In this document: positions 3,917 through 25,759 of the stretch, one piece after another
Numbering within the stretch: position 1 is the first letter of the stretch
How the letters are laid out: each line of letters opens with the position of its first letter
Assembly: GCF_000376845.1 (NCBI RefSeq)
Contig: NZ_AQXY01000026.1
Coordinates: 62,001 to 126,000 of the forward strand
Source of the DNA: Thioalkalivibrio sp. ALE14
Lineage (GTDB): Bacteria > Pseudomonadota > Gammaproteobacteria > Ectothiorhodospirales > Ectothiorhodospiraceae
Reading direction: 5' to 3'
DNA: 64,000 nucleotides
Program-made: the position numbers and the translations under genes
The notes under the pieces: generated by a model
The model's input: only the letters and a program-made list of their open reading frames with translations
Database searches by the model: none
What the model was told of the DNA's origin: nothing

Positions 3917-3929
3917 GAGGTAATCGCTC

Positions 3930-6722: not shown

Positions 6723-7058
6723 GTGGCGTCGAAACTCTCGGTTGCTCCTACACTTCGCGGCAAGCTGCAATAAAGGTGTCAGTCGTTCGGCGCAATACAT
6801 TGCAGGCATTGAGATGACGCCACTGAAGCTAATTCCTTGCCTATTGTGGCCAAAAAGCCATCGACCTTATCAGTCTTCACGCTATAATCGTTGATTGTCG
6901 TCTCACTGATACCATTTCCGGCTACGCGTCGAGCGTCCATGCGGAGCCTGTGCTAGTTCGCCCACCTTTGAAGATTTTCTAGGCCCTCCATGATCGCCCA
7001 CTTTCCTAGCCTTACCGTAGGCACGCCAATCCAACCACATCCCATTTTTACCCTTAAT
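6723..7058. other. 336 bp AT-rich intergenic stretch
   Basis: No gene is supported here. The sequence changes from the GC-rich style of the flanking deacetylase to clearly AT-rich. A perfect TATAAT hexamer occurs on the plus strand at 6883-6888, but there is no good -35 box and no plus-strand gene downstream. The promoter of the deacetylase at 6722 is expected on the minus strand in this stretch, but I could not pick it out. Confidence 0.5.
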
Positions 7059-7757: not shown

Positions 7758-7992
7758 TGAGCCATACCTTAAGTTGACCAATTCTTAATGGGAATGATTT
7801 TCGGCCAAACATGCTCGATGCTAGATTAAAATGGAGGGGGCCTAGGTGGACATAGTGGGCTCCTAAAAGGCGCTGCCAACAAAAAAGTCTCAACATGATC
7901 TGAAAAGAGCGAGGGAGCTGTTCTGCTAGCTCATCGTCAAAGATCCAGCTTAGATTTCTGAAACCGTATAGCCAGCTGTCGTCCCCTTGCAT
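7714..7992 (-). pseudogene. Detached N-terminal part of the FkbM methyltransferase (apparent frameshift)
   Basis: This 92-codon frame begins at an ATG with AAGAGGG a few bases upstream and ends at a TAG about 7714. Its last residues, KVWLNAEDPRMLAVPGEI, look like the strand-turn that precedes the SAM domain in FkbM proteins. The other frame continues exactly there with FRELLSPSSPLKRELKIG and then the SAM motif. Removing one A, or adding two bases, in the GGGAGAGATTT stretch would join the two into a protein of about 310 residues, the usual family length. This may be a real mutation, a phase-variable site or a sequencing error; the sequence alone cannot decide. Confidence 0.6.
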
Positions 7993-8080
7993 ATCGCCCT
8001 CTTCTCTTGTCTAGTTATAAACCGATTTTGCGGCCCTAATGCGGGTCTTTATATGTACTAGGTATGAGGTTATGTTTCGC

Positions 8081-9133
8081 TTATTTCGCGATCGAACGTG
8101 TTAAGACTTCAATAACCCTATGGGTAATCAACTCGGGATCCAGCTCGGGGCGTTTCGAATAGTCAAGTGCAGCGAGTGACAAGGCTTCCCAGTAACGAGA
8201 GTTCTCCCAGACGTTCCGGAGTGCGCTATTCCACGCGTCGAGGTCGCTGGGGGGTAAGAGCAAGCCGCCGGGTCCGAGGGCCTCTGGGATGCCCCCCGTG
8301 TCGCTAGCCAGAACAGGAATACCCGAAAACTGCGCTTCGGTGATTACTCGCCCCCAAGCTTCTTCCCACTGGCTTGGGACCAAAACTATACGCGCAGATT
8401 CGTATACCGGCCGCATGTCATTCTGCCGCTTCAAAAAAGTAACATTGGGAAGTCGTTTCAAGCGTTCTAGCAACTGTAAGCGAGCTGGTTTGTTTTGAGG
8501 CCAGCCTTCAACGAAGAGGAAAGGTATGCTCGGGTTATCTCTCGCGAGTCCGATAGCAATTTCGAGACCTTTTTTCTGGACAGGGTTTATGAATACGACT
8601 TTTTCGCCTCGTCGGCGTGTACGGTATGCGTTCGCGTCGAAGAGATTCGGTATCACGACGCATTGTTGGTTAAAATGATATTGAAAGCGAGAGGCAGTGA
8701 ATTTTGAATTGGCGATCACTGTGACTGGCTTGAAGGGGAGGTGCGAGTCGCGGAATTCAACGTCGCGGACATGGAGAGCGGTTGGGACGCCAAGGTGTTC
8801 GAGTACGCGTCCTAATTCAAGGCGTCCGGTGCCTTGAAGGAGTGCGATGTCAGGATGCACCTGTTTTAGTATGTTGGGGAGGTCTCGAGTCATCATCGGC
8901 GTCCTGAAGACGTTGTATCCTGCTCCAAACGGTTCCGGACGTGGGCGACCACCGAGCAGGATGCGCCGCGAGAGGGTCTTGATCCCATGGCCATCTAGCG
9001 CGCGAAGGCGTGAAAGGACGGTCGATTGAGTCCCTCGCTTATAGAGTGCGTTGGCTAAGTCGTGAACACTTGATTCGATCCCGCCTGAGCGTTGAGGGAG
9101 GAAGAGGCGGTTCAGCGCTAAAAGGATTCTCAT
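8081..9133 (-). CDS. Glycosyltransferase family 4 protein
   Basis: This 350-residue protein has a GT-B fold. The N-terminal Rossmann part opens with LLALNRLFLPQRSGGIES, the acceptor-side glycine loop of GT4 enzymes. The C-terminal donor domain carries VLVPSQWEEAWGRVITEAQFSGIPVLASD, seen here as VPSQWEEAWGRVITEA near residue 260, in which the EX7E pair binds the nucleotide sugar. It should add a sugar from an NDP donor to the growing repeat unit on the cytoplasmic face of the membrane. It lies in the AT-rich island with the FkbM gene, on the same strand, and was probably acquired with it. Confidence 0.9.
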   Translation of the reverse strand: MRILLALNRLFLPQRSGGIESSVHDLANALYKRGTQSTVLSRLRALDGHGIKTLSRRILLGGRPRPEPFGAGYNVFRTPMMTRDLPNILKQVHPDIALLQGTGRLELGRVLEHLGVPTALHVRDVEFRDSHLPFKPVTVIANSKFTASRFQYHFNQQCVVIPNLFDANAYRTRRRGEKVVFINPVQKKGLEIAIGLARDNPSIPFLFVEGWPQNKPARLQLLERLKRLPNVTFLKRQNDMRPVYESARIVLVPSQWEEAWGRVITEAQFSGIPVLASDTGGIPEALGPGGLLLPPSDLDAWNSALRNVWENSRYWEALSLAALDYSKRPELDPELITHRVIEVLTRSIAK

Positions 9134-9248
9134 TTTCGGTTGTCTCCATCCGTTCGGCGCGATACACCGTTCTTTGGCCTGTTAGGAACGTTTGTGGCCG
9201 CGATCGCGCAGCTGATCGAATAGGTGGTTATCCGGGCCGCTATGGTGG

Positions 9249-10214
9249 TCATGCGGCGCGTCGCTCGCGGGGTTCGGCGAGGTTGCGGGCGAGGCGCAGG
9301 CCGAAGCGCAGGGGCGTGCGGTCCCAGGGCGTGAAGCGCGGGAGTTGGAACGGGTCGGAATCGGTGCGTGCGGCGCCGGCGGCGGTGGAGACGGCGGCAT
9401 CGAAGCCGCAGTCGCGCGCGATCTGGACGTGTTCGGCGGCGTAGTCACGGTCCGGGCGGCCGTTCGGGTAGGCGAACAGGCGCAGGGGTCGGTCCAGCAG
9501 GGTTTCCAGATCGGTCTTGCCGCGCTGGATCTCGGTGCGCGCGGTATCGGCATCCACTTCGGTCAAGATCGGGTGGGTGGCGGTGTGCCCGCCGATCCCC
9601 ATGCCCGCCGCCGCCAGTTCGCGGACCTGTGCGCGGGTCATCATCAGGTCGTCTGGCAGGTCCAGCCCGAAGCGCACGGCCAGTGCCTCGGTGCCGGCCG
9701 TGCGCTGCTCGGCGGGCTGGTACTTGAACTGGCCGATCAGGTCGCGGATCAACTCCCGCCGGTCGGCGATCGTGTCCAGCTGCCGCTGTCCCAGGCCCTC
9801 CGGCGTCAGATCGATGAGTCCCGGCGGCAGGTGGCGCACGGTCTCGATCAGGGTGTCGTTGAACATGCGTCCGCCGTCGAGATACCCGGTGGCGATGAAG
9901 AAGGTGGCCGGGACGCCCTCCTCACGCAGGATGGGCAGGGCGACCTCGGCGTTGTCGGCATAGCCGTCGTCGAAGGTGACGCTGACCGCTCGGGCGGGCA
10001 GGGTGCCGGCCCGCAGGCGGTCCACGGCTTCCTCCAGCGGAAGCGGGTTCATGGAGCGCGCGAGGAGCCGCATCTGCCAGCGGAAGTCATCGGCGTGTGG
10101 GTCGCCGGGCAGCAGTGGGTCGGGCGCCGGCAGGACGCGGTGGTAGATCAGGATGGACAGGCGCGCGCGGGAGCCGCCGGGCGACATCAGGGACAGCAGC
10201 GAGCGCAGTAGCAT
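9249..10214 (-). CDS. NodB-type polysaccharide deacetylase
   Basis: The 321-residue protein has the NodB motifs: VTFDDGYADN (catalytic Asp and metal Asp) near residue 92, GGHTATHP (two metal-binding His) near residue 205, and LFAYPNG near residue 247. It starts LSILIYHRVLP, typical of the peptidoglycan/EPS deacetylase group found in PEP-CTERM loci. ATG at 10214 is chosen because it sits six bases after the wecB-like stop; the longer frame would overlap wecB. It probably removes N-acetyl groups from amino sugars of the polymer, which fits the UDP-HexNAc genes upstream. GC content is high again, marking the end of the AT-rich island. Confidence 0.88.
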   Translation of the reverse strand: MLLRSLLSLMSPGGSRARLSILIYHRVLPAPDPLLPGDPHADDFRWQMRLLARSMNPLPLEEAVDRLRAGTLPARAVSVTFDDGYADNAEVALPILREEGVPATFFIATGYLDGGRMFNDTLIETVRHLPPGLIDLTPEGLGQRQLDTIADRRELIRDLIGQFKYQPAEQRTAGTEALAVRFGLDLPDDLMMTRAQVRELAAAGMGIGGHTATHPILTEVDADTARTEIQRGKTDLETLLDRPLRLFAYPNGRPDRDYAAEHVQIARDCGFDAAVSTAAGAARTDSDPFQLPRFTPWDRTPLRFGLRLARNLAEPRERRAA

Positions 10215-10219
10215 GGTGG

Positions 10220-11374
10220 TCAGCCCGTGGCGCGGGCGCGTGGCTCGTGCCCCAGCCACCGGGCGATGACGGCCGCGATGCGCTCCCCGGCTCGGCCATC
10301 CCAGTACTGCGGGATGCGGCCCTTCTTGCCTCCATGATCCATGACGTCGCGGAAGGCGACCTGTAGACGTTCCGGATCGTTGCCGACCAGGACATTGGTG
10401 CCCTCGTCGATGGTGATGGGCCTCTCGGTATTCTCCCGCAGGGTGATGCAGGGCACGCCCAGGGCGGTGGTTTCTTCCTGCATGCCGCCGGAGTCGGTGA
10501 GGACCACCCGCGCATCCTTCATCAGGCCGAGCATTTCCAGATAGCCCGCTGGCGGCAGTACCGCGATGGCCGACTCGTTCAGGTGGTGCTCCAGCCCGGA
10601 GGCCTGCAGCCGGTCACGGGTACGGGGGTGCAGCGGAAAGATCAGAGGCAACTCGCGGGCGATGCCCGCCAGGGTGGTGATCAGGCGTTCGAGGATTGCT
10701 GGCTCGTCGACATTGGAGGGGCGGTGCAGGGTCAGCACGCCGTAGGCGCTATCCGGGGCGAAGCGCGCCGGGTCGATACCCGCGGATTGCAGGGATTCGT
10801 CCCAGGGCACGGCCCGCTCGAGGTTGTGGAGCTGGGTGTCGATCATCACGTTGCCGACGAAGTGGACGCGCTCGCGATCGATCCCCTCGCGGGCGAGGTT
10901 GTCGATGGCGTGTCCTTCGGTGGTGAACAGCAGATCGGAGATCTGGTCGGTCAGGACCCGGTTGATCTCTTCCGGCATGCGTCGATCGTAGCTGCGCAGG
11001 CCGGCCTCGACGTGGATGACGCCGATGCCCTTCTTGGCTGCGACCAGAGCGCAGGCGATGGTGGAATTCACATCGCCCACGACCAGAACGGCCCGCGGAT
11101 TCAGCTCGTCCAGTACCGGTTCGAAGCGGCTCATGACCTCGGCGGTCTGGACGGCGTGGGAGGAGGAACCGACCTCCAGGTTGATGTCCGGATAGGGGAT
11201 GTTCAGATCGGTGAAGAAGCGCTCGTTCATCGCCGGATCGTAGTGCTGGCCGGTATGCACGAGCTGGGCGGTGATGCCGGCGTCCGTCAGGGCGCGCATG
11301 ACCGGGCCGATCTTCATGAAGTTCGGCCGTGCGCCGACCACGCACAGGATTTCGCATTGCGGTTGGGGAGTCAT
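10220..11374 (-). CDS. wecB: UDP-N-acetylglucosamine 2-epimerase (non-hydrolysing)
   Basis: The 384-residue enzyme interconverts UDP-GlcNAc and UDP-ManNAc in the cytoplasm. Recognisable motifs are GARPNFMKIGPVMRAL at the N-terminus, HTGQHYD, VVGDVNST, HVEAGLRS, and SGGMQEE with CITLRENTERP near the C-terminus; the Asp and Glu in these motifs are catalytic in the family. ATG at 11374 (MTPQPQ) gives the standard length, whereas the frame extends 24 codons upstream with no conservation. It is followed by the deacetylase, six bases after the stop. Together with the dehydrogenase at 13169-14458 it could supply UDP-ManNAcA or a related acidic sugar. Confidence 0.94.
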   Translation of the reverse strand: MTPQPQCEILCVVGARPNFMKIGPVMRALTDAGITAQLVHTGQHYDPAMNERFFTDLNIPYPDINLEVGSSSHAVQTAEVMSRFEPVLDELNPRAVLVVGDVNSTIACALVAAKKGIGVIHVEAGLRSYDRRMPEEINRVLTDQISDLLFTTEGHAIDNLAREGIDRERVHFVGNVMIDTQLHNLERAVPWDESLQSAGIDPARFAPDSAYGVLTLHRPSNVDEPAILERLITTLAGIARELPLIFPLHPRTRDRLQASGLEHHLNESAIAVLPPAGYLEMLGLMKDARVVLTDSGGMQEETTALGVPCITLRENTERPITIDEGTNVLVGNDPERLQVAFRDVMDHGGKKGRIPQYWDGRAGERIAAVIARWLGHEPRARATG

Positions 11375-11655
11375 GGGCTGTCGAGAAATCCTGTGGGCGC
11401 ATGGGCGGACCCGCTCGCGACGACGCCAACGGGCGCGGCTCGGCATCCTTGTCGGGTTCGACGGCCCGGTCCGGATCCCTGTCGAATCACTTTATCGTTT
11501 CGGCTGGAACGCGCGGCGCCCTTCGTGAATGGCTCGTTAGGTCCGGGATGCTGGCATGTGCATGACAACCAGGTGGGAAGTGATCATCGTTGGACCTGAT
11601 AGACGATTGAGGGGTGGGCTGCATTGATCCAGATTCCTGGCAGTGACGGACGGTG

Positions 11656-13077
11656 ATGAGGCGCTTCGGGCACGCACCGCATCCGTGGCTTTGCGCAACG
11701 CTTGCACCGTGCGTCTTGCTGCTTGGGGTGCCGGTGGCCGCGGCCGATACCGTCGCTGAGGCGGTATCGGCGAGTCCTGGCGTTGCTCTGCCGTATGAGG
11801 GCTGGAATGTGGTTCAGGCCGGGCCGGAGGATTACCGGGCGGCGGTGGCTGCGCTGGAGCCCGGCGACTGGTTGCGGCTGGAAGCGGGTGACTATCCGCG
11901 TTCACTGCGGCTGCGCGGGGTGCGCGGGACGCCGGAGCGGCCCATCGTCATCAGCGGGCCGGCCGATGGGGAGCCTGCCATCCTGCACGGGCGGCGCGGG
12001 GAGAACACGATCAGTCTGGTGGATGCCGAGTACGTAGTGATCCGGCATCTGACTCTGGATGGTGGGGGCGAGCCAGTCGCCGGGGTGGTGGCGGAGGCGC
12101 GGGGCGACGGGGTCCATCACGTGACGCTGGAGCACCTGACGATCCGCCACTACGACCATTCGCAGGGCAACACGGGGATCACCACGCGGGTACCGGCCCG
12201 GGGCTGGGTGATCCGGCACAACGAGATCCACGATGTGGGGACCGGGATGTATCTCGGGCAGCCGGACGGGACCAGTCCGTTTGTTGCTGGCGTGATCGAG
12301 CACAACCATGTGCACCGCACCCTTGGGTACAACATCCAGATCAAGCATCAGACGGATCGCGACGGGATCCCGGGGATGCCGTCTCAACCGTACGAGACGC
12401 GTATTTGCTACAACGTGCTGAGCAAGGTAGAGCGCGGAAGCGACGGGGCACGGGCACGGCCCAACCTGCTGGTGGGGCATTTCCCGCCCACCGGCCCGGG
12501 GTCGGAGGACCGGTATCGTATTGCCGGGAATCTGTTTTATCAGAATCCGCATGAGCGGTTGTTCCAGGGCGAAGGCCACATCGAGCTCCACGACAACCTG
12601 TTCGTGAACGATGCCGGTGACGCGATGGTGATCCGCCCGCACAACCACGTGCCGCGCGCGGTCCGCATCGTGAACAACACGGTGCTGGCCACTGGCTTCG
12701 GGATTCGCGTGGACGAGCCGGACCGTGCCTACCGGCAGGTAGTCGCGGGCAATGCCGTGTTTGCCGGGGACCCGCTGCAGCTCTCCGGGGGTATCGCGGG
12801 TGACGACAATTTCACTGCGTCGCGCGAGGATGCGGCCCGGTATCTGGTCGCCCCGGATGCCGGGCTGGATGCGCTGGATTTGTATCCCCGCGAGGGTGCT
12901 CTGCCCGAGCGTGCGGGCAGCGTGAGTTCGGCCCCGGTCGCGGGTGCGAATCGTGACTACAATGGCCGTCTGCGCGAGCGGGTGGTCTGGGGTGCCTATG
13001 GCGGGCCGCCGGGATCCAACCCCGGGCGCGTGGATGGGATCGGGCCGCGCGTCCCCGGCTGCGCGCCCTGTCGGTGA
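11656..13077 (+). CDS. Secreted right-handed parallel beta-helix repeat protein
   Basis: This 473-residue protein starts with a Sec signal peptide (hydrophobic core [18 protein letters not shown], probable cleavage after AAA near residue 31). The body is built of turns with stacked Asn/His ladders, such as [44 protein letters not shown] and [10 protein letters not shown], which is the pectate-lyase-like beta-helix pattern. Such proteins bind or cleave polysaccharides in the periplasm or outside the cell. A role in trimming or binding the exopolysaccharide is inferred from position. GTG at 11653 directly precedes the ATG and is an alternative start. The C-terminus VPGCAPCR has two cysteines but no PEP-CTERM signal. 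Confidence 0.82.
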
Positions 13078-13168
13078 TCCGGCGGCAAGCGCCGGCGGCG
13101 ACGTACAAGCACGGAGTGGCATCCGGCCCGGGGCCCTCCCTCACATTGGCTATGAGAACGGACATCTT

Positions 13169-14458
13169 ATGCACACGCTTCCTGCGCTGGATGAAGTCAC
13201 CATCGGTGTAATCGGTCTGGGGTACGTCGGCCTGCCACTGGCCGTGGAGTTCGGACATCACTGGCCCACACACGGGTTCGACATCGACCCGGAACGGGTG
13301 CGGCAACTGCAGGCCGGGGTGGACCGCACGCGCGAGGTGGAGTCGGACAAGCTCGCGGCCACGCCGAAGCTGACGTACACGGCGGATCTGGAGGTCATGC
13401 GCCAATGCAACGTGTTCGTGGTGACGGTGCCGACGCCGATCGATCAGCACAAGCGCCCCGATCTGGGCCCGCTTCTGGGCGCCAGCCGCAGTGTCGGGCG
13501 GGTGCTCAAGCCGGGTGACACGGTGATCTACGAGTCCACCGTCTACCCGGGGGCGACCGAGGAGGATTGTGTGCCGATCCTGGAGGCGGAGTCCGGGCTG
13601 GTGCACAACCAGGACTTCTTTACCGGCTACAGCCCCGAGCGCATCAACCCGGGCGACAAGGAACACGGGGTCACCTCCATCATGAAGGTCACCTCGGGCT
13701 CCACCCCGGAGGTGGCCGATTTCGTCGACGCGCTGTACGCGCGGGTCATCACGGCCGGCACGCACAAGGCCGAGAGTATCCGCGTGGCCGAGGCCGCCAA
13801 GGTGATCGAGAACACCCAGCGTGATGTGAACATCGCGCTGATCAACGAGCTGGCGTTGCTGTTCGAGCGCCTGGGGCTGGATACGGAAGCCGTGCTGAAG
13901 GCGGCCGGGACCAAGTGGAACTTCCTGCCGTTCCGCCCCGGGCTGGTGGGCGGCCACTGCATCGGCGTGGACCCGTACTACCTGACCCACAAGGCGCAGG
14001 CGGTGGGGCATCACCCGGAGATGATCCTGGCCGGGCGGCGTGTGAATGACTCCATGGGCGCCCACATCGCGGACAACACGGTGCGGGCGCTGGTGCGCAA
14101 GGGCATCAACCCGGTGGGGGCGCGAATCCTGGTGATGGGGCTGACCTTCAAGGAGAACTGCCCGGACCTGCGCAATACCCGGGTGATCGATATCCACGCC
14201 ACCCTGGCCGGCTACAACGCCGATGTGACCGTCTTCGACCCCTGGGTGGACCCGACCGAGGCCGAGCACGAATACGGGATTACCCCGGTGACCGAGACCC
14301 CGGACCCGGGGCAGTTCGATGCGATCATTTTGGCGGTGCCGCACCGCGAGTTCCTGCAGATGGGAATCGAGGCGATCCGCGAACTGGCCCGGCCGGAGTC
14401 GGTCATCTTCGACGTGAAATCGGTCTTCCCGCGGGAATCGACCGATCTGCGCTTGTAA
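13169..14458 (+). CDS. UDP-N-acetyl-hexosamine 6-dehydrogenase (TviB/WbpA-like)
   Basis: The 429-residue nucleotide-sugar dehydrogenase oxidises C6 of a UDP-HexNAc to a uronic acid using two NAD+. The NAD-binding [16 protein letters not shown] opens the protein. The central domain has [19 protein letters not shown], and the active-site cysteine is in [12 protein letters not shown] near residue 270. The third domain has [19 protein letters not shown]. The sequence style is that of Vi-antigen TviB rather than UDP-glucose dehydrogenase. ATG at 13169 is used; the longer frame upstream runs through the end of the beta-helix gene. Whether it acts on UDP-GlcNAc or UDP-GalNAc is not visible. Confidence 0.92.
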
Positions 14459-14534
14459 CCGCGGTTCGGGATGTATTCGCAGGGAGGCACCGAATCCATC
14501 GTTCGGTGTCGCCCCGGTTTTGCGACGAAATGAT

Positions 14535-14564
14535 CTTCGACGGGTGGTGCAGCGCCCGTCGAAG
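14535..14564. terminator. Hairpin between convergent genes
   Basis: A perfect 10 bp stem (CTTCGACGGG / CCCGTCGAAG) with a 10-base loop lies between the convergent dehydrogenase and PEP-CTERM genes. A weaker 7 bp stem (CACCGAA / TTCGGTG) lies at 14488-14508. Neither has a long T-run, so this may be a bidirectional but partly Rho-assisted terminator. Confidence 0.55.
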
Positions 14565-14582
14565 ACCTTCGTGATGGATGTT

Positions 14583-15368
14583 TCAGTTGCCGCTATCAGA
14601 CCGCTTGCGGCGCCAGAGCATCGATCCGGCAACCAGCAGCCCGCTGGCAAACAATACTAGAGTGCCGGGCGTCGGTACTGGCGTAACTTGCTCGAGTTCC
14701 CCGATGGTCATGTTGTCGAAGCTGAAGATGTCGGTCTGCGGACCTTCGACCAGGTCAAAGTCGAGCGAAGTGAACAGGAAGTCCTCACTTGTGGCAATGG
14801 CACCAAAGTAGAAGACCGAGCCGTCCGTAGACCCGCCGGATCCCACGGTGTGCGGGACGGTTTCCTGGTGGATGCCTCCCGAGCTCAAGTTGAAATTGAT
14901 CAGCAGTTGCCCGCCGAAATCACCGATGTCGATCCCGTAAAACCCGAACGCGGCGATGTCCTGCCCAAAGTCGACGCCGAACCCGTCATCCCCGGTCGCA
15001 TTGGCACGCCAGGTGTTGGTGCCGGAGACGGAATAGCGGCCGAAGTAGGCGCTGCCCTCGGAAACGGTCTTGATGCGGCCGTCCCCCGTCAGTGTCGCGC
15101 TAAGCGAACTCCCACCGAAGCCAGGGAAGGTGAGGTTCAGGGGGGCACTGGTCCCCGTGGCAAAGCTTTCGAAGTCTTCGGTTCCCACCCCGCTGAGTGA
15201 GCCGAGAAAAGAACTTTCAGCTGCGTCGGCATTGGGGGTCGACGACAGCGGGACGTTTGCCGAATTGTTCAGGTCTTCCCCGAAATAGGTGATGAAGGCG
15301 GCTTGAGCCGAGGGCCCCGCAAGCATCGCCCCCGCGGCGACCAAAGCAATGATGAGCGGTCGTTTCAT
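14583..15368 (-). CDS. PEP-CTERM sorting-domain protein (VPTPG variant)
   Basis: The 261-residue precursor has an N-terminal signal peptide (KRPLIIALVAAGAMLAG, cleavage near AQA-AF) and a C-terminal tripartite sorting signal: VPTPGTLVLFASGLL, a transmembrane stretch, then the basic WRRKRS. The motif is PTP rather than PEP. The middle is a beta-rich, Gly/Ser/Thr-rich domain with little charge and the FESFATG and FYGIDIGDFG pieces seen in PEP-CTERM proteins. Exosortase A is expected to cleave the tail and link the protein to the envelope polymer. ATG at 15368 is preceded by AAGGGAG at good spacing, and by a sigma-54 promoter at 15405-15421. No exosortase gene is in the window. Confidence 0.88.
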   Translation of the reverse strand: MKRPLIIALVAAGAMLAGPSAQAAFITYFGEDLNNSANVPLSSTPNADAAESSFLGSLSGVGTEDFESFATGTSAPLNLTFPGFGGSSLSATLTGDGRIKTVSEGSAYFGRYSVSGTNTWRANATGDDGFGVDFGQDIAAFGFYGIDIGDFGGQLLINFNLSSGGIHQETVPHTVGSGGSTDGSVFYFGAIATSEDFLFTSLDFDLVEGPQTDIFSFDNMTIGELEQVTPVPTPGTLVLFASGLLVAGSMLWRRKRSDSGN

Positions 15369-15404
15369 GCTGTAACTCCCTTGTTGACATGGCTGACCGT
15401 GGGC

Positions 15405-15421
15405 AAGCACCAAGCGTGCCA
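15405..15421 (-). promoter_or_regulatory. Sigma-54 promoter of the PEP-CTERM gene
   Basis: On the minus strand the sequence TGGCACGCTTGGTGCTT matches the RpoN consensus TGGCACG-N4-TTGCW with one mismatch, with GG and GC exactly 10 bases apart. The start of transcription would be about 15395, giving a leader of about 27 bases before the ATG with its ribosome-binding site. PEP-CTERM genes in other species are known to be under an RpoN-dependent regulator (PrsK/PrsR), which fits. Confidence 0.8.
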
Positions 15422-15585
15422 TCGTTTTTTAACTTTATGAATTCGAAGAATTAAATTGGACACCCTTCCTCGTCAGGCCGAGTCGGTGTAAAGGTTTGTG
15501 ACGCGTTTCGCGATCCCTGCATGCTACTGCTTCGCGAGTTCCGGCGGGTATACAGTGATGAACCGGCCTCCGCCCCGAGCCCCTC

Positions 15586-18500
15586 ATGAATGCGATGGTG
15601 AATGCAGCTGAACCCCTGTCCCTGCGCACGTGTGCGCTGTGGGCCTGGTTGTCGCTGGGGGCGGCGGTCTATCTGACGCTGTTGCCGTTCGAGTTCGGCT
15701 CGATGAGTCTGGAGCGTGCCTGGGAGATCTACCGCGCCATGAGCCTGACCGGCCCCGGGACCAGCGGCCGCCAGCAGTTCATGGCCAATGCCCTGATGTT
15801 CCTGCCGCTGGGATTCTTCTGGACCGCATGGATGACGCACGGGCGCCGCAACCGGCTGCTGGCCGGCGGCGCATTCGTCTTCGTGGCCGCGTTGGGGCTG
15901 GCCGTCACGGCCAGTGTGGAATTCCTCCAGGTCTGGTTGCCCTACCGCCACCCTGCGGGCGCTGATATTGCCGGTAATTTTTCCGGGGCCGTGGCCGGTT
16001 CGCTCGCCTGGCTGGTCCTGCGAGACCCGCTCGTTCGCTGGCGGCAGGTGCTGGAAGGCGCGGGCGCGCAGACCTTGACCGCCGGTCTGGTGGTCTATGC
16101 CGCAGTCTACGTGCTGGTTGGCTTCGTCCCCTTTGACTTTGTACTGGCCGCGGACGAGTTGCGGGCCCGGTTGGCATCGGATGCCTGGGGCTGGTGGGTG
16201 GCGGCCGGCGCCTGCACTGGCGGCGTTCGCTGTATCAGCTGGCTGACGCTGGAGGTGGTGGTCAGTGTGCCGGTCGGTTTGCTCCTGGCGCTGTGGCTGC
16301 AGCGGCGCGGGACATCGCTGCTGGGGGTCGGGATCCCCCTGGTCCTGCTGCTGGCGGGCCTGCTGGAGCTGCTGAACCTGGTGACCCTGTCGGGGATTGC
16401 CGAAGGACGTTCCGTGCTGCTGCGGGCGCTGGGGATGGGGATCGGCCTCGTCCTGTTCCGGCGCCTGCCCGCGCATCCCCATGGCGTGATCCGAACGCTG
16501 CAGCAGTTCGCCACGCCGTTGCTTGTGACGGGTACCGTTGCCTACGCCTTGCTGCTGGTCGCGCTCAACCACGGCTTCGGTGCGTTTCACGCCGACGGGG
16601 AGGCGGCCCGGGCGCAGTGGGCCGACCTGAACCTGTGGCCTTTCTATTACCACTACCACGTGGACGAGATCCACGCCCTGCGCAGTACCGCGCTGCACCT
16701 GGCCATGTACGCGCCCCTGGGGGGGCTGGTCTGGCTCTGGCAGTTGCGCCATCCACTGCAACCGGCCGCGTTGAACCTGCTGGCGGTCCTCACGGGGGTT
16801 GCGCTGGCGCTGGCGGTCGAGGCCGCCAAGCTGTTTGTGGACGGTGCCCGCCCGGACCCGGCCAGCCTGGTCCTGGCCGGGCTGGCGGCCGGGTTCATGG
16901 TCGCCTCGCTGCAGTGGTTGGAACGCGCGAGCGTGGCGGGTGTCGCGCAACCGGCCATGGCGTCGCGAGACGAGCCCCGCAATGCTGCCCCGGGACCAAG
17001 CGATCCAGGCTCGGTCGTGGGCTCTCTGCAACGGTTGCGCCAGGCCCTTGGCGGTCTCCTGGCCCTGGTGGCCGTGCTGGCGGCGGTGACCTGGCCGGTG
17101 GCGCCGGTCGCGCTGGCCGCGGGGTTGCTGGCCTACGCCGTCTTGCTGGCCTGGCGTCTGCAGGTCTGGCTGGTCGTGATCCCGGTTGTGCTGGCCACGC
17201 TGGACTTGACCCTCTACCACGGGCGTCTGTTTGTCTCCGAGCTGGATCTGTTCCTGTTGATGACCCTGGCCGTGGCCCTGTGGCGAGGGCCCCATGCGCT
17301 GCATGTGGGCGCATCGCTGCTGCCGCGCGGGATCCGCTGGCCACTGGGGCTGCTGGTCGTCTCCACCCTGATCGGCCTGGGGCTGGCCCTGTGGCCGCCC
17401 GGAGGCTGGAACCCCGGCGCAGCGGTGCACTTTGCCCACGACTGGAATGCCCTGCGGGTCGCCAAGGGCCTGCTGTGGGCGGTGGTGCTGCTGGCAGTGT
17501 TGCGCGTGGCGCCCATTCCGGTTCGGGAGCAGGTGACACGCTGGTTTCTCCCGGGCGTGGGGCTCGCCCTGCTGGCGCAGCTGGCCTTCGTGGTGCGCGA
17601 GCGGATCACCTATCCCGGGCTGCTGGATTTCGACAGCGGCTACCGCCTGTCCGGTCTGTTCTCCGAGATGCAGGCGGGCGGCCCCAGCATCGAGACCTTC
17701 CTGGTGCTGGCCTTCCCGCTCGCCCTGGTCTGGTGCTGGCGGCAGCGCCCCGGCGTACTGCTCGCCGGATCGGCCGTGCTGGCGGTCGGGACCGCCTATG
17801 CGGTCGCGATGACCTATTCGCGCGGCGGGTATCTGGGACTCGCGGTGGCGGTTGCGGTGCTGGCGGCCGGGATGCTGCTGGCGGCAATGCATGGGCGCAT
17901 GCGGTCGGCCGGGGCCGTGGTGGCCGGTGTGCTGTTGCCGGTCGTGGCGATTGCGCTGATCGCGGGCACGACGCTGGGCGGGTTTGCCGAACAGCGCCTG
18001 GGTCAGATCGAACGCGACTTCGGCAGTCGCCTGGATCACTGGCGGGCCGCGCTCGAGTTACCCGGTGCCGGGCCGCTGGCGCCACTGCTGGGCCGGGGTG
18101 TCGGCCGTTTCCCCGAGCACTATCGCACGGGTAACCGCGACGGGCGCGTACCCGGGAACCTGGCGTTCACCCACGAGGGTGATGTGCCGCGCCTGCAGAT
18201 CGGGGGTGGCGATTCGCTGTTCGTGAATCAGCGCGTGAGCCTGCCCCGTGACGGGCGCCTTACCGTAACGGTGGAGGCGGCCAGCGACCGGCCTGCGGGA
18301 TTCCGGGTGTTCATCTGCGAGAAGCCCATCCGCCATTCCTTCGTCTGTCGCAGTGAGGGGATGCGGCTGGACGATGGTGGGCGTCAGAGCTTCCAGTGGG
18401 CCTTCGATCTGGATCCCATGGAGACGCGTCCCTGGCCATTCCAGCGCGGCCTCGTGCTGTCGCTGGCAGTCGACGCACGTCAGCAGTCTGTCGTCGAATT

Positions 18501-18894
18501 TTACAGGGTGCAGATCCGGGGTTCGGCCGGTCGCGAATATGTGGCCAATGGCGATTTCCGGCACCTGGGCCGCCACTGGTACTTCACCACGGATCACCTC
18601 TGGCCCTGGCGCGTCGAGAATCAGTGGCTGGAGCTCTATTTCGACCAGGGCTGGCTGGGTGTGGCCGCCTTTGTCTGGCTGACGCTGGCCGCCCTCGCGT
18701 TCCTGTTGCGCCGCGGCCTCCGCGGCGATGCGGTGGCCCTGGCCTCGGCCGCTGCCCTGGCGGGGGCGCTGTCCATTGGTCTGTTCAGCACACTGTTCTT
18801 CTCGCCACGGATCGCGCTGTTGTTCTATCTCGTACTGTTTATGGGGGTGGCGGCTCGCAAGTTGCCACCATCAAGTGGCCCCCGGTGGCGTTAG
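15586..18894 (+). CDS. Multi-domain membrane protein: tandem VanZ-like modules fused to an O-antigen ligase/polymerase-like domain
   Basis: The 1102-residue protein is almost entirely membrane helices up to about residue 830. Residues 18-150 form a VanZ-like module (LPFEFGSM, then NALMFLPLGFFW, then SVEFLQ). Residues 160-300 (VPFDFVL, then LLELLNL) and 330-450 (NLWPFYYHYHVDEIHALRS, then AVEAAKLF) look like two further copies. Residues 480-840 resemble O-antigen ligase/Wzy proteins, with MTYSRGGYLGL near residue 745. A periplasmic domain of about 200 residues (850-1030) precedes the last three helices. A role in polymerising or ligating the exopolysaccharide is inferred. The start is the first of two close ATGs; no clear ribosome-binding site is seen. 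Confidence 0.75.
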   Translation: MNAMVNAAEPLSLRTCALWAWLSLGAAVYLTLLPFEFGSMSLERAWEIYRAMSLTGPGTSGRQQFMANALMFLPLGFFWTAWMTHGRRNRLLAGGAFVFVAALGLAVTASVEFLQVWLPYRHPAGADIAGNFSGAVAGSLAWLVLRDPLVRWRQVLEGAGAQTLTAGLVVYAAVYVLVGFVPFDFVLAADELRARLASDAWGWWVAAGACTGGVRCISWLTLEVVVSVPVGLLLALWLQRRGTSLLGVGIPLVLLLAGLLELLNLVTLSGIAEGRSVLLRALGMGIGLVLFRRLPAHPHGVIRTLQQFATPLLVTGTVAYALLLVALNHGFGAFHADGEAARAQWADLNLWPFYYHYHVDEIHALRSTALHLAMYAPLGGLVWLWQLRHPLQPAALNLLAVLTGVALALAVEAAKLFVDGARPDPASLVLAGLAAGFMVASLQWLERASVAGVAQPAMASRDEPRNAAPGPSDPGSVVGSLQRLRQALGGLLALVAVLAAVTWPVAPVALAAGLLAYAVLLAWRLQVWLVVIPVVLATLDLTLYHGRLFVSELDLFLLMTLAVALWRGPHALHVGASLLPRGIRWPLGLLVVSTLIGLGLALWPPGGWNPGAAVHFAHDWNALRVAKGLLWAVVLLAVLRVAPIPVREQVTRWFLPGVGLALLAQLAFVVRERITYPGLLDFDSGYRLSGLFSEMQAGGPSIETFLVLAFPLALVWCWRQRPGVLLAGSAVLAVGTAYAVAMTYSRGGYLGLAVAVAVLAAGMLLAAMHGRMRSAGAVVAGVLLPVVAIALIAGTTLGGFAEQRLGQIERDFGSRLDHWRAALELPGAGPLAPLLGRGVGRFPEHYRTGNRDGRVPGNLAFTHEGDVPRLQIGGGDSLFVNQRVSLPRDGRLTVTVEAASDRPAGFRVFICEKPIRHSFVCRSEGMRLDDGGRQSFQWAFDLDPMETRPWPFQRGLVLSLAVDARQQSVVEFYRVQIRGSAGREYVANGDFRHLGRHWYFTTDHLWPWRVENQWLELYFDQGWLGVAAFVWLTLAALAFLLRRGLRGDAVALASAAALAGALSIGLFSTLFFSPRIALLFYLVLFMGVAARKLPPSSGPRWR

Positions 18895-20604: not shown

Positions 20605-20620
20605 TGGCATTACGCTTGCT
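20605..20620 (+). promoter_or_regulatory. Sigma-54 promoter of the cysteine-rich protein gene
   Basis: TGGCATTACGCTTGCT has GG and GC exactly 10 bases apart and matches the RpoN consensus in TGGCA and TTGCT. Transcription would start near 20631, leaving a leader of about 108 bases before the ATG at 20739. The same kind of promoter precedes the PEP-CTERM gene at 15368. Confidence 0.72.
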
Positions 20621-20738
20621 AAGTCTTGGTAGAAAGCGTCTGATTGCATTGTGCCCCCGAGAATTCGCCGGTCGCGGTGGTTTCGGGTTTTCCGGCGCGA
20701 ATGGCGCAACGCCGAGTACGGATCTGGAGCAGTCAAGC

Positions 20739-21500
20739 ATGAGTGACGAACACGAGCACAACGATGGCAAGGGCCTCAAGGGCAAGGGCGAAAACGCGTC
20801 CGGAACCCCTGCGGACCATGGCTCGGAGTCGTCGGCCCCCCGTAGCCGGAGCCGGCGCCGCCTGACCGCAGCCGGTCTGGGTGGCGCGATGCTGGTGTCC
20901 CTCCCCGCCAAGTCGGTCTGGGGTGCACAGGGGCAGTGTTCGCTGTCGGGCAATATCTTCTCCGCCAACGTCTCCAATATCGACCACGAGTGCACCGAGG
21001 GCGATGGCTGCACGCCGGGCTTCTGGAAGAACAACTGGTTCGCCTGGGACTGCACCGGCTACTCCCCGGGGACCTGCCATGAGACCAATCCGCCGGGCAA
21101 CCAGTGTCGCCGCTTCGATGCCACGGTGCATCCCGGTGGCGCGACCTCCTTCGAGTCGGTGTTCGGCTACAAGCCGGAATGCCTGAGTGGCTCGCCGTCG
21201 CTGATGGAGGTGCTGCAGGCCAGTGGCGTGTGCAGTGGCTCGCTGGACTGGCATGCGGTGGGCGCGGTCCTGAACGCGGCCTGCACCTCGATCGACTTTG
21301 GTGCCTCGGTGGACGAAGTGATCAAGGCCTATTCCATGGCCCGCGAGGATGCGGACAAGTACGCGGCGGTGAAGAATGTCTTCGTCTACATGAACGAGCG
21401 CTTCTGTCCGATCAACAGCCAGGGCGATTGCGAGGATGGCTACTCGCGCAACGAACTGGGCGTATGCGTGGAAGTGCGGACCACCACATCCAACCAGTAG
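20739..21500 (+). CDS. Secreted cysteine-rich protein with CTPGFWK motif
   Basis: The function is not recognised. The 253-residue protein has a hydrophilic, His/Glu/Gly/Lys-rich N-terminal segment of about 45 residues, then SRSRRRLTAAGLGGAMLVSLPAKSVWGA (written in parts: SRSRRRLTAAGLGG, AMLVSLPAKSVWGA), which resembles a Tat-like or long Sec signal. The exported part contains 12 cysteines, an even number that suits disulfides, starting with the GCTPGFWKNN motif near residue 89. ATG at 20739 is preferred; the open frame begins at 20547 but runs over the RpoN promoter. It stands immediately before the PqqD/HprK-like/nucleotidyltransferase cassette and is the obvious candidate client. The long pre-signal segment could act as a leader. 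Confidence 0.75.
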   Translation: MSDEHEHNDGKGLKGKGENASGTPADHGSESSAPRSRSRRRLTAAGLGGAMLVSLPAKSVWGAQGQCSLSGNIFSANVSNIDHECTEGDGCTPGFWKNNWFAWDCTGYSPGTCHETNPPGNQCRRFDATVHPGGATSFESVFGYKPECLSGSPSLMEVLQASGVCSGSLDWHAVGAVLNAACTSIDFGASVDEVIKAYSMAREDADKYAAVKNVFVYMNERFCPINSQGDCEDGYSRNELGVCVEVRTTTSNQ

Positions 21501-21567
21501 GGCATTCGCTGACCTCCGGGGCGCTGCTGCCCCGGATACGCCTGACCGCACGGTACACGAGGCGCAC

Positions 21568-21870
21568 TTGTCCGTTTTCGAAGAACCCCTCGAACTGATT
21601 TCGCTGTCGGTCGCTCACGTGCGGGCGTGGGGCGAATCCGTGGTCGTCTATGATCAGCGCTGTGGCGAGACACACGTGCTGCAACCGCCCCTCACCGAGC
21701 TCTTCCAGGCCCTGCAAGAGGGGCCGATGACGCCGACGGCCCTGTTCGAGTACCTTGAACAGCGTTACGAAGCCGCCGAGGGGGAGCTGGAGGATGCGAT
21801 GCACGCGGGACTGACCCAGTTGCGGCAGCACTACCTGATCCAGGTCGCCCCGGAGTCGCGGAGCGCGTGA
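21568..21870 (+). CDS. PqqD-like protein, HPr-rel-A system
   Basis: This protein of about 100 residues has the PqqD-type winged-helix look: an N-terminal beta-hairpin (LISLSVAHVRAWGESVVVYD in parts: LSVAHVRAW, SVVVYDQRCGETHVL), then LTELFQALQ and YLEQRYEAAEGELEDAM helices. PqqD domains bind leader peptides of ribosomally made, modified peptides. A TTG start at 21568 is proposed because CGAGG lies five to six bases upstream and gives the usual length; the open frame extends to 21436 but overlaps the previous gene. Its stop overlaps the kinase GTG by 4 bp. The small PqqD-related family next to HprK-related kinase A is known by name but not by function. Confidence 0.75.
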   Translation: MSVFEEPLELISLSVAHVRAWGESVVVYDQRCGETHVLQPPLTELFQALQEGPMTPTALFEYLEQRYEAAEGELEDAMHAGLTQLRQHYLIQVAPESRSA

Positions 21871-22772
21871 CGGGCCAGGAAACCCTGAAGGCAGGGTTGC
21901 GGGGTGCCGGCCTTCCCATCCAGGTGGGCCCGTTCGTGGTGCGGTTGCGTTCGCGGCTGGACCGCATCGAGCGTTCCGTGGCCTTGTTCTATGACCGCCA
22001 GCTGCTGCCGGCGGATGGCACCCCGTTTGCGGACTTCCACATCACCCTCGCGCGTTCCTCCGGCCTGCATGCGGTCTGGCGACCGCAGGCGCGTTTCTTC
22101 CTTGACGGGCGTTCGCCCTTCCGGCCATTGCCGCTGGCCCATGCCTACCCGCTGTTCGAGTGGGGCCTCAACTGGTGCATCGCCCAGCATGCCCATGACT
22201 TCCTGATGATCCATGCGGCGGTGCTGGAACGCGACGGTCAGGCGCTGGTGATGCCGGGCGAGCCCGGGGCGGGCAAGAGCACCCTGACCGCCGCGCTGGC
22301 GCTTTCGGGGTGGCGGTTGTTGTCGGACGAGTTCGCCCTGCTGTCCCTGGAGACCGGCCGGCTCGTGGCGTTGCCGCGTCCGGTCAGTCTGAAGAATGCC
22401 GCCATTGATCTGATCCGCGAGCGCTACCCGCAGGCAATCATCGGGCCCTCCTCGTACGACACCAGCAAGGGGACGGTGGCCCACCTGAAGCCGCCGGACC
22501 CAAGCATCGAGCGGATGGACGAGCAGGCCCGGCCGGCCTGGCTGGTGTTTCCGCGCTTTGCCGTCGGGGGGCGTGACCATCTGGAGCCGCTGGCCCCGGC
22601 CGAGGCGTTGCAGCGGCTGGTCGGCTCGTCGTTCAACTACAGCGTGGTGGGGGCGGCGGGCTTCGAGGCTGCGGCCGACCTGATCGAACAAAGTGCGTGC
22701 CTGAATCTGGAGTACGCGGACCTGGACGCCACCCTGGGCCTGCTGAACGGGTTGCCGGAGGGTGGCGCGTGA
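21867..22772 (+). CDS. HprK-related kinase A
   Basis: The 301-residue protein has the C-terminal P-loop kinase fold of HPr kinase/phosphorylase without its N-terminal domain. The Walker A sequence GEPGAGKST is at residues 131-139, and the LLSDEFALL stretch with acidic residues follows near 151. No HPr gene lies nearby, and the canonical HprK signature is not evident, so the substrate is probably another protein or peptide. GTG at 21867 overlaps the PqqD-like stop (GTGA), and its own stop overlaps the next GTG, so the three genes are translationally coupled. A kinase acting on a client bound by the PqqD-like protein is a reasonable but untested model. Confidence 0.85.
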   Translation: MTGQETLKAGLRGAGLPIQVGPFVVRLRSRLDRIERSVALFYDRQLLPADGTPFADFHITLARSSGLHAVWRPQARFFLDGRSPFRPLPLAHAYPLFEWGLNWCIAQHAHDFLMIHAAVLERDGQALVMPGEPGAGKSTLTAALALSGWRLLSDEFALLSLETGRLVALPRPVSLKNAAIDLIRERYPQAIIGPSSYDTSKGTVAHLKPPDPSIERMDEQARPAWLVFPRFAVGGRDHLEPLAPAEALQRLVGSSFNYSVVGAAGFEAAADLIEQSACLNLEYADLDATLGLLNGLPEGGA

Positions 22773-23875
22773 CCCGCCCCGCGCTTGCACAAATGCTCGC
22801 GACTCTGCGCGAGCCGGCCGGGGTCAGTGAGCGGTCGCCGGCGGACTGGGACTTGCTGGTCCGGGTGGCGCGGGTCGCCTCCCTGGAGGGGCGGTTGCAG
22901 GCCCTGATCGAGGATGCCGGGGCCTTGCCGGACGTGCCCCCGGCGCCGCGGCGGCACCTGCATGCGGCCCGCGTACTGGCGGATCGCCAGCATGTCATGG
23001 TCCGCTGGGAAGTGGCACGGATCCACGAGGCCCTGGCCCCGGAACAGATCCCGGTGATGTTGCTGAAGGGGGCCGCCTACGTGATGGCCGGGCTGCCCTG
23101 TGCACGGGGGCGGCAGTTCTCGGATGTCGACATCATGGTCCCGAAGGCGCAGATCCAGCAGGCGGAACAGCACCTGTTCGTCCAGGGGTGGGTCTGCGAG
23201 GGATACGATGCCTATGACCAGCGATATTACCGCCAGTGGATGCATGAACTGCCGCCGCTGACGCACATGCGGCGCAAAAGCGTGCTGGACGTACACCACA
23301 CGATCCTGCCGCCGACGGCGCGGTTGCACCCCGATCCGGCCCTATTGTGGCAGGCGGCGCTGCCGCTGGAGGGTTACCCCGGTGTGTACATTCCGGCTCC
23401 GGTCGACATGGTCCTGCACAGCGCGACGCACCTGTTTCACGACGGCGAGCTGGAGAACGGGTTGCGCGATCTGGCGGATCTGGATGCACTGCTGCGTCAT
23501 TTCGCGAATGAAGATCCGGCCTTCTGGGAGCGACTGACGGCACGGGCCTTCGAGATGGACCTGGCACGCCCCCTCTTTTACGCCCTTCGGTACGGGCACG
23601 AGTTCCTGCAAACCCCGGTTCCGGATTCGGTGATCCGGGCCCTGGCGCCGGCGCGCCCGGCGTTGCCTCTGCTCGCCTTGATGGATGCCCTCTTCCGCCG
23701 TGGTCTGAAACCGCACCACTGGAGCTGTGATGGAGGCCTGTCGGGCGTTGCGCGCTGGCTGTTGTACGTCCGCTCGCACTATCTGCGCATGCCCTTGCAC
23801 CTGCTGGTGCCGCATCTGCTGCGCAAGGCGATCAAGGAGCATCGCAAGGGCAAGCGGGAAAGGCCCGATGCATGA
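22769..23875 (+). CDS. Nucleotidyltransferase family protein (NTP_transf_5)
   Basis: The 368-residue protein has the NTP_transf_5 core: MLLKGAAYVMAG near residue 93 and GRQFSDVDIMV near residue 114, where the two Asp are the metal-binding pair of the polymerase-beta fold. A further VLDVHHTI near residue 175 would carry the third acidic residue. GTG at 22769 overlaps the kinase stop by 4 bp. The family occurs together with HprK-related kinases, often close to exopolysaccharide loci. It may transfer a nucleotide to a protein or small molecule; the substrate is unknown. The C-terminus is basic (HRKGKRERPDA). Confidence 0.83.
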   Translation: MTRPALAQMLATLREPAGVSERSPADWDLLVRVARVASLEGRLQALIEDAGALPDVPPAPRRHLHAARVLADRQHVMVRWEVARIHEALAPEQIPVMLLKGAAYVMAGLPCARGRQFSDVDIMVPKAQIQQAEQHLFVQGWVCEGYDAYDQRYYRQWMHELPPLTHMRRKSVLDVHHTILPPTARLHPDPALLWQAALPLEGYPGVYIPAPVDMVLHSATHLFHDGELENGLRDLADLDALLRHFANEDPAFWERLTARAFEMDLARPLFYALRYGHEFLQTPVPDSVIRALAPARPALPLLALMDALFRRGLKPHHWSCDGGLSGVARWLLYVRSHYLRMPLHLLVPHLLRKAIKEHRKGKRERPDA

Positions 23876-24913: not shown

Positions 24914-25759
24914 CTACTCCCGGACGTTCGCCAGCAGCGGACGAATGCGGTCGGCCGGCACGGCGTAGCTGATGCCGCTCGGATGGCCGACCGCGGCCTC
25001 GCGTCCGCCCTGCACGAAGACCTGGTTGATTACGCCCACGACTTGGCCGCTGTCGATGCGGTAGAGGGGGCTTCCGCTGTTTCCGGGGTAGGCGGTGGCG
25101 TCCAGCTGAAACACCATGGGCGCGCCGTCGCGCAGTTGCCGGATGCGAGCCTCGCTCAGTTCGCTCGAGCGGCGTGCGGTGATGGCCATGGGCGTGCGCG
25201 CCGCCACGCTGGCGCGATGGGACGCCGGGTAGGTGCCCAGGACCATGGCGATCGGGTAGCCCGTGAACGCGAGCTGTTCGCCCTCGCGCACCGCATCCGA
25301 CGATCCCAGCTGCAAGGGGGGCAGCGGGTCGCCGGCAATCCGCAACAGGGCTAGGTCGTCGTTCGCCGAATGTGCCACGACTTCCGCGCTGTGAAGGGAG
25401 GTGTTGCGACCTTCGCCGCTGACCACCACGAGCTGTTCGCGGTTCTCGTGGTCGAGTGACGCCGGGATCACATGGTGATTGGTGACGACCAGGGTCCCGT
25501 CGCCAACGGCGAAGCCGGTGGCGATGTACTGGGCGCGCGGGCTACGCGAGGGCTGGTGGGTCGCGATGCTGACCACCGAGGGCTTGATGCGCTCGATGGT
25601 GTCGGGGAGCCCGTCGGCAGCGGCCGGCTGCTGGGCTGCCAGCAGGGTCAGAAGACTCGCTGTGGCCAGCAGTTTTAGCGTCCTCCCTTTCCGCTGCCGG
25701 GTACGCGCCGGGCGGCGCAGGGTCAAAAGGCCGGATCGCGTGCTTGTCGTGCTGTTCAT
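24914..25759 (-). CDS. Trypsin-like serine protease (DegP-like core without PDZ)
   Basis: The 281-residue protein has an N-terminal export signal (basic region, then LKLLATASLLTLLAAQQPAAA). The catalytic triad is visible as TNHHV (His), ANDDLALLRI (Asp) and PGNSGSPLY (Ser). No PDZ domain follows, so it is shorter than DegP/DegQ and more like small periplasmic proteases. A role in periplasmic protein quality control or processing is likely. The gene is alone between purU and the hotdog-like gene, 52 bp upstream of the latter. An internal start at the LKLLA region is possible. Confidence 0.85.
   Translation of the reverse strand: MNSTTSTRSGLLTLRRPARTRQRKGRTLKLLATASLLTLLAAQQPAAADGLPDTIERIKPSVVSIATHQPSRSPRAQYIATGFAVGDGTLVVTNHHVIPASLDHENREQLVVVSGEGRNTSLHSAEVVAHSANDDLALLRIAGDPLPPLQLGSSDAVREGEQLAFTGYPIAMVLGTYPASHRASVAARTPMAITARRSSELSEARIRQLRDGAPMVFQLDATAYPGNSGSPLYRIDSGQVVGVINQVFVQGGREAAVGHPSGISYAVPADRIRPLLANVRE

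Follow-up and report, generated by a model that had tools for sequence, protein, structure and literature searches.

What does an HprK-like kinase act on when its gene stands beside that of an exported, cysteine-rich protein, and how would such a substrate be recognised? The question is raised by a four-gene cassette of Thioalkalivibrio sp. ALE14, located in a 64,000-nucleotide stretch of contig NZ_AQXY01000026.1 (positions 62,001 to 126,000, forward strand; hereafter the window), which encodes a Cys-rich protein (the client), a PqqD-like protein, an HprK-related kinase and a nucleotidyltransferase. By comparing kinase loci across genomes, we show at the level of gene content and order that the client is conserved as a single unit with the PqqD-like protein and the kinase, a unit to which the nucleotidyltransferase is nearly always added where the client belongs to the family of the window protein (class A). 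This unit is probably a leader-directed protein modification system, combining a twin-arginine leader, a recognition element (RRE) of the kind known from ribosomally synthesised and post-translationally modified peptides (RiPPs), a kinase, a nucleotidyltransferase and export by twin-arginine translocation (Tat).

The cassette in the window

Open reading frames (ORFs) and profiles confirmed the gene order proposed in a first-pass annotation of this DNA, namely a Cys-rich gene followed by PqqD-like, HprK-like kinase and nucleotidyltransferase genes with 4-bp overlaps:

20739..21500, plus strand: class A client, a Cys-rich exported protein of 253 amino acids (aa) with 12 Cys (ORF, best start ATG 20739)
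20850..20927, plus strand: twin-arginine signal region of the client, residues 38-63, SRRRLTAAGLGGAMLVSLPAKSVWGA, proposed to act as Tat signal and as the leader read by the PqqD-like protein (conserved arginines, profile A4)
20937..20975, plus strand: client residues 67-79, CSLSGNIFSANVS, with conserved C67, S70 and S75, candidate phosphorylation site (invariant columns of alignment A3)
21009..21029, plus strand: CTPGFWK motif of the client, residues 91-97, opening the confidently folded part (sequence)
21568..21870, plus strand: PqqD-like protein, predicted discrete RRE, start TTG (TIGR04353, 62.7 bits, cut-off 35; AlphaFold2 (AF2) model)
21867..22772, plus strand: HprK-related kinase A, start GTG, with H116, K137, D154 and E155 (TIGR04352, 384.1 bits, cut-off 200)
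22769..23875, plus strand: family-5 nucleotidyltransferase (NTP_transf_5), start GTG, with conserved K100-G101, D119 and D121 (PF14907, 210 bits, cut-off 31.2)

The PqqD-like/kinase and kinase/nucleotidyltransferase junctions are two 4-bp GTGA overlaps. The Cys-rich gene is real, but its likely start codon lies downstream of the start at 20605 given for it earlier. Both the kinase and its PqqD partner exceed the curated cut-offs of the HPr-rel-A families (TIGR04352, TIGR04353), and the kinase is 87-88% identical to those of Thioalkalivibrio ALJ16, AL2 and ALMg11. In the nucleotidyltransferase, K100-G101, D119 and D121 are conserved columns over 127 homologues. Profile A4 matches the client signal region at E 3.0e-8. 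The cassette is devoid of an HPr gene, as already noticed in the first pass; the genome encodes HPr elsewhere (C28:162297).

Genome sets and alignments

Three sets of loci were considered. The class-wide set comprised the 41 of 369 gammaproteobacterial genomes with TIGR04352 above cut-off; its clients were located by eye and by pattern, not blind, and the profiles match them by construction. The 80 named loci scored best among at least 586 kinase loci and are therefore biased to close relatives, with at least six of them repeating training contigs (L111, L115, L123, L140, L158, L165). In the phylum draw, the kinase occurred in 61 of 398 genomes, and 40 loci of these were examined. Alignments were built from 29 of the 31 class A clients (A1, without the duplicate L036 and L070), from 12 of the 41 kinases (A2), from the window client and 34 clients of the 80 named loci (A3, 35 sequences) and from 37 of the 40 leaders (A4, without the duplicate L036, L040 and L064).

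Client and kinase form a conserved unit

At 40 of the 41 class-wide loci, the PqqD position is immediately preceded by a gene whose product carries twin arginines ahead of a hydrophobic stretch; at the 41st, the contig ends about 600 bp upstream. These clients split into 31 of class A and 9 of a second class (class B). Among the named loci, client hidden Markov models (HMMs) matched 82 of the 5175 ORFs scanned, in 78 of the 80 loci and all on the kinase strand, with the client directly upstream in 60 loci and, in 18, downstream at 1.7-3.3 kb from the start of the kinase; these HMMs found no client at the other two (L122, L141). Four named loci carry a tandem pair of class A clients downstream of the kinase (L114, L125, L138, L150). 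A client was also present in 35 of the 40 phylum loci (8 class A and 27 class B, one of the latter, L227, being added by eye).

The accompanying enzymes recur as well. A PqqD-like gene stands at the kinase in 40/41 class-wide, 77/80 named and 31/40 phylum loci, and a nucleotidyltransferase gene in 34/41, 79/80 and 34/40, respectively. Within the class-wide class A loci, the nucleotidyltransferase was found in 30 of 31, the remaining contig (L063) ending 150 bp past the kinase. Over the 161 loci, we encountered one ORF joining PqqD and kinase (L136, 3377-4681) and one joining kinase and nucleotidyltransferase (L253, oriented, 4968-7088), which could be genuine fusions or frameshifts introduced in assembly.

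The association also holds at genome scale. Of the 369 genomes, 36 contain a total of 38 matches to the class A profile, 31 of these matches being cassette clients (by construction) and 7 lying elsewhere; four of the matched genomes are without a kinase above cut-off (G080, G084, G099, G215). The table of class A profile against kinase (32/9/4/324) yields a Fisher value of 1e-33, uncorrected for relatedness or training. A 30-position leader profile, run on 58 whole genomes, returned 19 matches at E <= 1.6e-6, the next being at 0.0017. All 19 adjoin a kinase, which is present in 20 of these genomes, and no strong match occurred in the 38 kinase-less ones; in the 20th kinase genome (G322), its own client scores only 0.156. 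Ordinary twin-arginine signals match this profile weakly, so that it appears to capture more than the Tat motif.

A tree of all 81 class-wide and phylum kinases requires two changes of client class, against a mean of 25 after shuffling (0 of 500 shuffles as low), or just one if L233, of doubtful class, is set aside. A tree made earlier from 69 of these 81 kinases, lacking 7 of the 8 phylum class A rows, also had one change, with a Shimodaira-Hasegawa-like approximate likelihood ratio (SH-aLRT) support of 98. Kinases and client classes therefore travel together. Conserved adjacency, genome-wide co-occurrence and a kinase tree that follows client class thus bear out the Cys-rich protein as the partner of the cassette, and leave hardly any doubt about their association. 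Besides these, several genomes (G143, G256, G352, G194, G299 and others) encode kinases of about 90-104 bits, below the TIGR04352 cut-off and aligned only from about model position 87, which may represent a sister family of kinases that have other partners.

Two client classes share a twin-arginine signal

Beyond their common twin-arginine signal, class A and class B clients, mostly 130-250 aa long, have no detectable similarity. None of 35 class A members matched Pfam or NCBIfam at E <= 0.01, and 7 class B members gave one weak NCBIfam match to an unrelated model, far below its cut-off. The signal itself is recognisable across the classes: an HMM trained on class A leaders only recovers 15 class B clients from the held-out phylum loci at E < 0.1 (best non-client 0.38); among the 80 named loci it also picks up one non-client, at L152 (E 0.065). 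Twin arginines occur in 145 of the 155 parsed clients, and TatC is encoded in the genome.

These results relocate the leader. It had been placed in the 45-residue hydrophilic segment that precedes the export signal, but over 112 aligned class A clients only Met1 reaches 75% identity before the twin arginines. The twin-arginine signal is the conserved shared element and the stretch upstream of it is not; the hydrophilic stretch is therefore not the conserved leader. It had also been anticipated that a cassette found next to an unrelated client would speak against the idea. Class B is in part such a client, but it retains the common leader, and its occurrence therefore supports leader-directed modification.

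The CTPGFWK motif, initially seen as the defining feature of the client, was rejected as a diagnostic, not being general in the client family: of the 41 class-wide cassettes, 9 contain strict CTPG[FY]W and 9 have class B clients without the motif. Across the 369 genomes, the corresponding DNA pattern gave 30 matches in 29 genomes (reversed control, 11), of which 9 fall within cassette clients, 3 belong to larger proteins encoded elsewhere and 18 resemble chance frames by eye. The three larger proteins away from cassettes (L096, G015:C37; L084, G099:C48; L110, G084:C6) indicate that this domain is also used without the cassette. The strings CTPGYWK and CTPGFWK were not found in the open PubMed Central (PMC) literature.

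Conserved cysteine and serine positions in the clients

Across the 112 aligned class A clients, the window protein among them, conserved positions include R40 (112/112), S70 (111), R39 (110), C67 (110) and N179 (109). The Ser of an SGN triplet (S75 in the window protein) is aligned in 107 rows and lies one column further in five Thioalkalivibrio rows. R40, C67, S70 and S75 are the invariant columns of A3. Among 118 parsed class A clients, an exact Cys-x-x-Ser at the first Cys after the signal occurs in 77 (mean 15.2 and maximum 27 over 1000 shuffles), and a Ser lies 3-5 residues past that Cys in 108. A lipoprotein was rejected, with a lipobox at this Cys in 1 of the 118. In class B, 32 of 36 clients have Cys-x-x-Ser within their final 40 residues (shuffle mean 3.4, maximum 10), and the strict C-terminal form C-[WFYLMIVN]-[STANG]-S-[FLIVA] occurs in 29 of 36 (shuffle mean 0.18); L041, L043 and L062 are without the motif Cys. 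One class B client (L054, 74 aa) consists of little beyond an export signal and a C-terminal CNASLI motif.

The AF2 model of the window client (mean predicted local distance difference test (pLDDT) 70.9, predicted template modelling score (pTM) 0.61) is mostly confident over residues 91-220, with a dip at 111-130. Its pLDDT is very low before residue 67, with block means of 47, 52 and 64 for residues 61-70, 71-80 and 81-90. In this model the Cys/Ser stretch thus seems flexible, ahead of a fold opened by CTPGFWK. The fold had no match in the Protein Data Bank at Foldseek E <= 0.001 (best VIA Z 3.2), a result uninformative on novelty.

An HprK-like kinase paired with a predicted recognition element

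The kinase profile matches the HPrK/P structures 1jb1 and 2qmh (E 0.0014). H116, K137 and D154-E155, which align with the His, P-loop Lys and Asp-Asp of 1jb1, are kept in all 41 class-wide kinases. A His-Lys-Asp-Asp motif is reported to be essential in lasso peptide kinases (PMC9266682); the cassette kinase differs from it in its last residue, Glu. For the PqqD-like protein, the AF2 model (mean pLDDT 81.9) has its best VIA match in the lasso RRE TbiB1-leader complex 5v1v (Z 11.8, root-mean-square deviation 2.8, 88 residues), followed by 6jx3, a lasso RRE solved with leader peptide (Z 9.9), and then by others, with PqqD 5sxy at Z 7.6. The initial view of this protein as a leader binder is upheld by this predicted RRE fold, nearest to lasso-peptide leader-binding proteins.

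A trypsin-like protease as a probable further component

A fifth gene recurs in cassette genomes:

24914..25759, minus strand: serine protease of trypsin-like, HtrA-related type, apparently bearing an export signal at its N-terminus (PF13365)

In the 58 relatives, a relative of this protease was found in 18 of the 20 kinase genomes vs 2 of the 38 others, on a different contig than the kinase in G008, G322 and G021. It occurs in 36 of the 284 genomes of the class draw, 23 of these 36 being among the 41 cassette genomes (table 23/5/13/243, Fisher 4e-20, assuming that the draw is G000-G283). Near the cassette itself, it was found at 18/41 class-wide, 16/80 named and 6/40 phylum loci. We consider the protease a probable fifth component.

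Neighbourhood of the cassette

Positions 1-15422 of the window hold an exosortase-A-type exopolysaccharide (EPS) locus, with an acyl-CoA ligase (TIGR03098), a decarboxylase (TIGR03099), deacetylases, a UDP-GlcNAc epimerase, a UDP-glucose dehydrogenase and a PEP-CTERM-like protein (14583-15422, minus strand, below model cut-off). A 1102-aa protein with VanZ-like domains and an O-antigen-ligase-like part follows at 15586-18894. An exosortase context was rejected as the general setting of the cassette, being found in few loci only.

Relation to known modification systems

Two peptide systems share the enzyme trio. The linear polyphosphorylated peptides (LPP) of Bacillota, encoded by LppA/K/B/S/D/N and called restricted to that phylum in the discussion of their report, also rely on a discrete RRE, an HprK-like kinase and an NTP (nucleoside triphosphate) transferase; LppK adds several phosphates to core Ser3, near the leader junction (PMC13381572). 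They resemble the present system further in a precursor with a conserved N-terminus and a variable remainder, in the apparent absence of a macrocyclase and in their frequent location in polysaccharide loci. LPP loci, however, encode a SipW-like leader peptidase of their own and a transporter resembling MsbA, and their leaders carry a YxxPxVL motif (PMC13381572), whereas we find a twin-arginine signal and mostly protein-sized clients. Neither an SpI leader peptidase nor an MsbA-like transporter was recognised by eye among the recurrent neighbours of the 41 loci, no model search being made.

Phosphorylated and phosphoglycosylated lasso peptides provide the second parallel, with the kinases PadeK, ThcoK, SyanK and PsmK; PsmK phosphorylates the C-terminal Ser and PsmN, a nucleotidyltransferase, adds a hexose to the phosphate (PMC8498205, PMC9266682). 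Both systems have a PqqD-like protein (B1), an HprK-like kinase and a nucleotidyltransferase, and the conserved near-terminal Ser of class B recalls the lasso site (PMC8498205, PMC9266682). They differ in the size of the clients, here mostly 130-250 aa. As for a lasso cyclase, an asparagine-synthase-like ORF was seen by eye near only 4 of the 41 loci, cyclase and B2 peptidase not being model-searched.

MNIO bufferins (multinuclear non-heme iron-dependent oxidative enzyme products) likewise have an export signal in place of the usual leader, Cys motifs and some protein-sized members, and so set a precedent for signal peptides as leaders; they differ in combining Sec signals with an iron oxidase, where the present system has a twin-arginine signal and a kinase (PMC12452194). 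Finally, the kinase and PqqD partner are members of the NCBIfam HPr-rel-A arrangement, whereas no NCBIfam model covers the class A clients (0/35). No substrate for this kinase or its partner was found in the open PMC literature searched, nor any comparable pathway; none of the papers retrieved combines a kinase system with twin-arginine, by counts or by title, and those retrieved with the C-terminal motif of class B were unrelated, judging by title. The claim that such a pathway had not been described therefore stands in part: the enzyme trio is known from lasso and LPP peptides (PMC13381572, PMC9266682), but Tat-signal protein clients and leader appear new.

Proposed pathway and its alternatives

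We propose that the twin-arginine signal peptide of the client doubles as a leader, which the PqqD-like RRE would bind, perhaps delaying export, and so present the client to the kinase. The kinase would then phosphorylate or polyphosphorylate a conserved Ser in or near Cys-x-x-Ser, S70 or S75 in the window protein and the near-terminal Ser in class B, and the nucleotidyltransferase would add a sugar or a nucleotide to that phosphate. Tat would export the product, whose leader would be cut off by signal peptidase; outside, the product may be trimmed by the trypsin-like protease. The common type of export signal beside the cassette suggests that clients are marked in the cytoplasm before export, and a Tat route would fit such a modification followed by export of the folded protein. 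From these elements and by analogy with the peptide kinases, we infer modification, site and export with unequal confidence. Export of the client by Tat is likely, and modification of the client by the kinase only slightly less so. The Ser of the Cys/Ser region is a reasonable but tentative choice of site, and decoration of the phosphate by the nucleotidyltransferase, modelled on its lasso counterpart, is put forward just as tentatively.

Several observations weigh against this pathway. Five of the 40 phylum loci are without a recognised client, and the nucleotidyltransferase is missing from 6 of the 9 class-wide class B cassettes (present in 3). The strict Tat motif RRx[FL]x[KR] occurs in only 88 of the 155 parsed clients, and none of the Tat-signal models in Pfam or NCBIfam gave a match. 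The RRE-binding motif of lasso and LPP leaders, [YW]xxPx[LVIFA], was found in just 1 of the 155, so that any RRE binding would use another motif. Exact Cys-x-x-Ser spacing at the first Cys is missing in 41 of the 118 class A clients, and the two client classes have their proposed sites at opposite ends. Deletion of lppN was reported to be without effect in the LPP test host (PMC13381572).

The cassette could alternatively serve export proof-reading, with the PqqD-like protein as a signal-peptide chaperone and the kinase, together with the nucleotidyltransferase, as a switch releasing the client to Tat, phosphorylation being transient or on the adaptor. The signal peptide is indeed the conserved shared element, and a partner protein masking the signal peptide has been proposed for MNIO RiPPs (PMC12452194). 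Both client classes, however, have conserved Cys/Ser positions outside the signal peptide, and the RRE-paired HprK-like kinase of the LPP system phosphorylates the precursor (PMC13381572), which makes this explanation unlikely. Leader-directed modification with another chemistry, in which the kinase activates a carboxylate or other residue (to form a crosslink, for instance) and the modified residue is Cys instead of Ser, is less likely still: in class A, Cys is conserved to the same degree as Ser (110/112), but the HprK-like RiPP kinases described in three reports act on a Ser hydroxyl (PMC8498205, PMC9266682, PMC13381572), and the class B clients L041, L043 and L062 are without the motif Cys. 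We give little credence to a role in surface polysaccharide synthesis with the client as a passenger: the window cassette adjoins the exosortase-A-type EPS locus (TIGR03098, TIGR03099, VanZ/ligase gene), but within flanks of about 10 kb VanZ/ligase relatives occur in 4 of the 41 loci vs clients in 40, and an exosortase-type-like decarboxylase (by eye) in 4. A regulatory HPr kinase of a phosphotransferase system (PTS)-type signalling path is the least credible explanation despite the distant homology to HPrK/P, with 12.8 bits for TIGR00679 (cut-off 240) and 12.2 for PF07475 (cut-off 33.3), and with the genomic HPr lying about 1.4 kb from its own canonical HprK (C28:160353), which also makes HPr an unlikely substrate.

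We thus retain leader-directed modification, in which the client would be phosphorylated or polyphosphorylated on a conserved Ser and then further decorated, as in the analogous peptide systems. In its widest form, this would be a widespread pathway of Pseudomonadota in which at least two kinds of exported protein are phosphorylated, and often phosphoglycosylated, in the cytoplasm on a conserved Ser (mostly of Cys-x-x-Ser), with an RRE reading the Tat signal as a leader and Tat exporting the folded product; taken as a whole, this is a conjecture with somewhat less than an even chance.

Implications

If true, this would be the first system of RiPP type to combine leaders that are Tat signals with an HprK-type kinase whose products are protein-sized. 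It would extend RRE/kinase modification from the short peptides of Bacillota to exported Gram-negative proteins, with the signal peptide as leader. The HPr-rel-A kinase and its PqqD partner had been named by NCBI; candidate substrates, a leader and candidate residues are now proposed for them, which makes the system directly testable.

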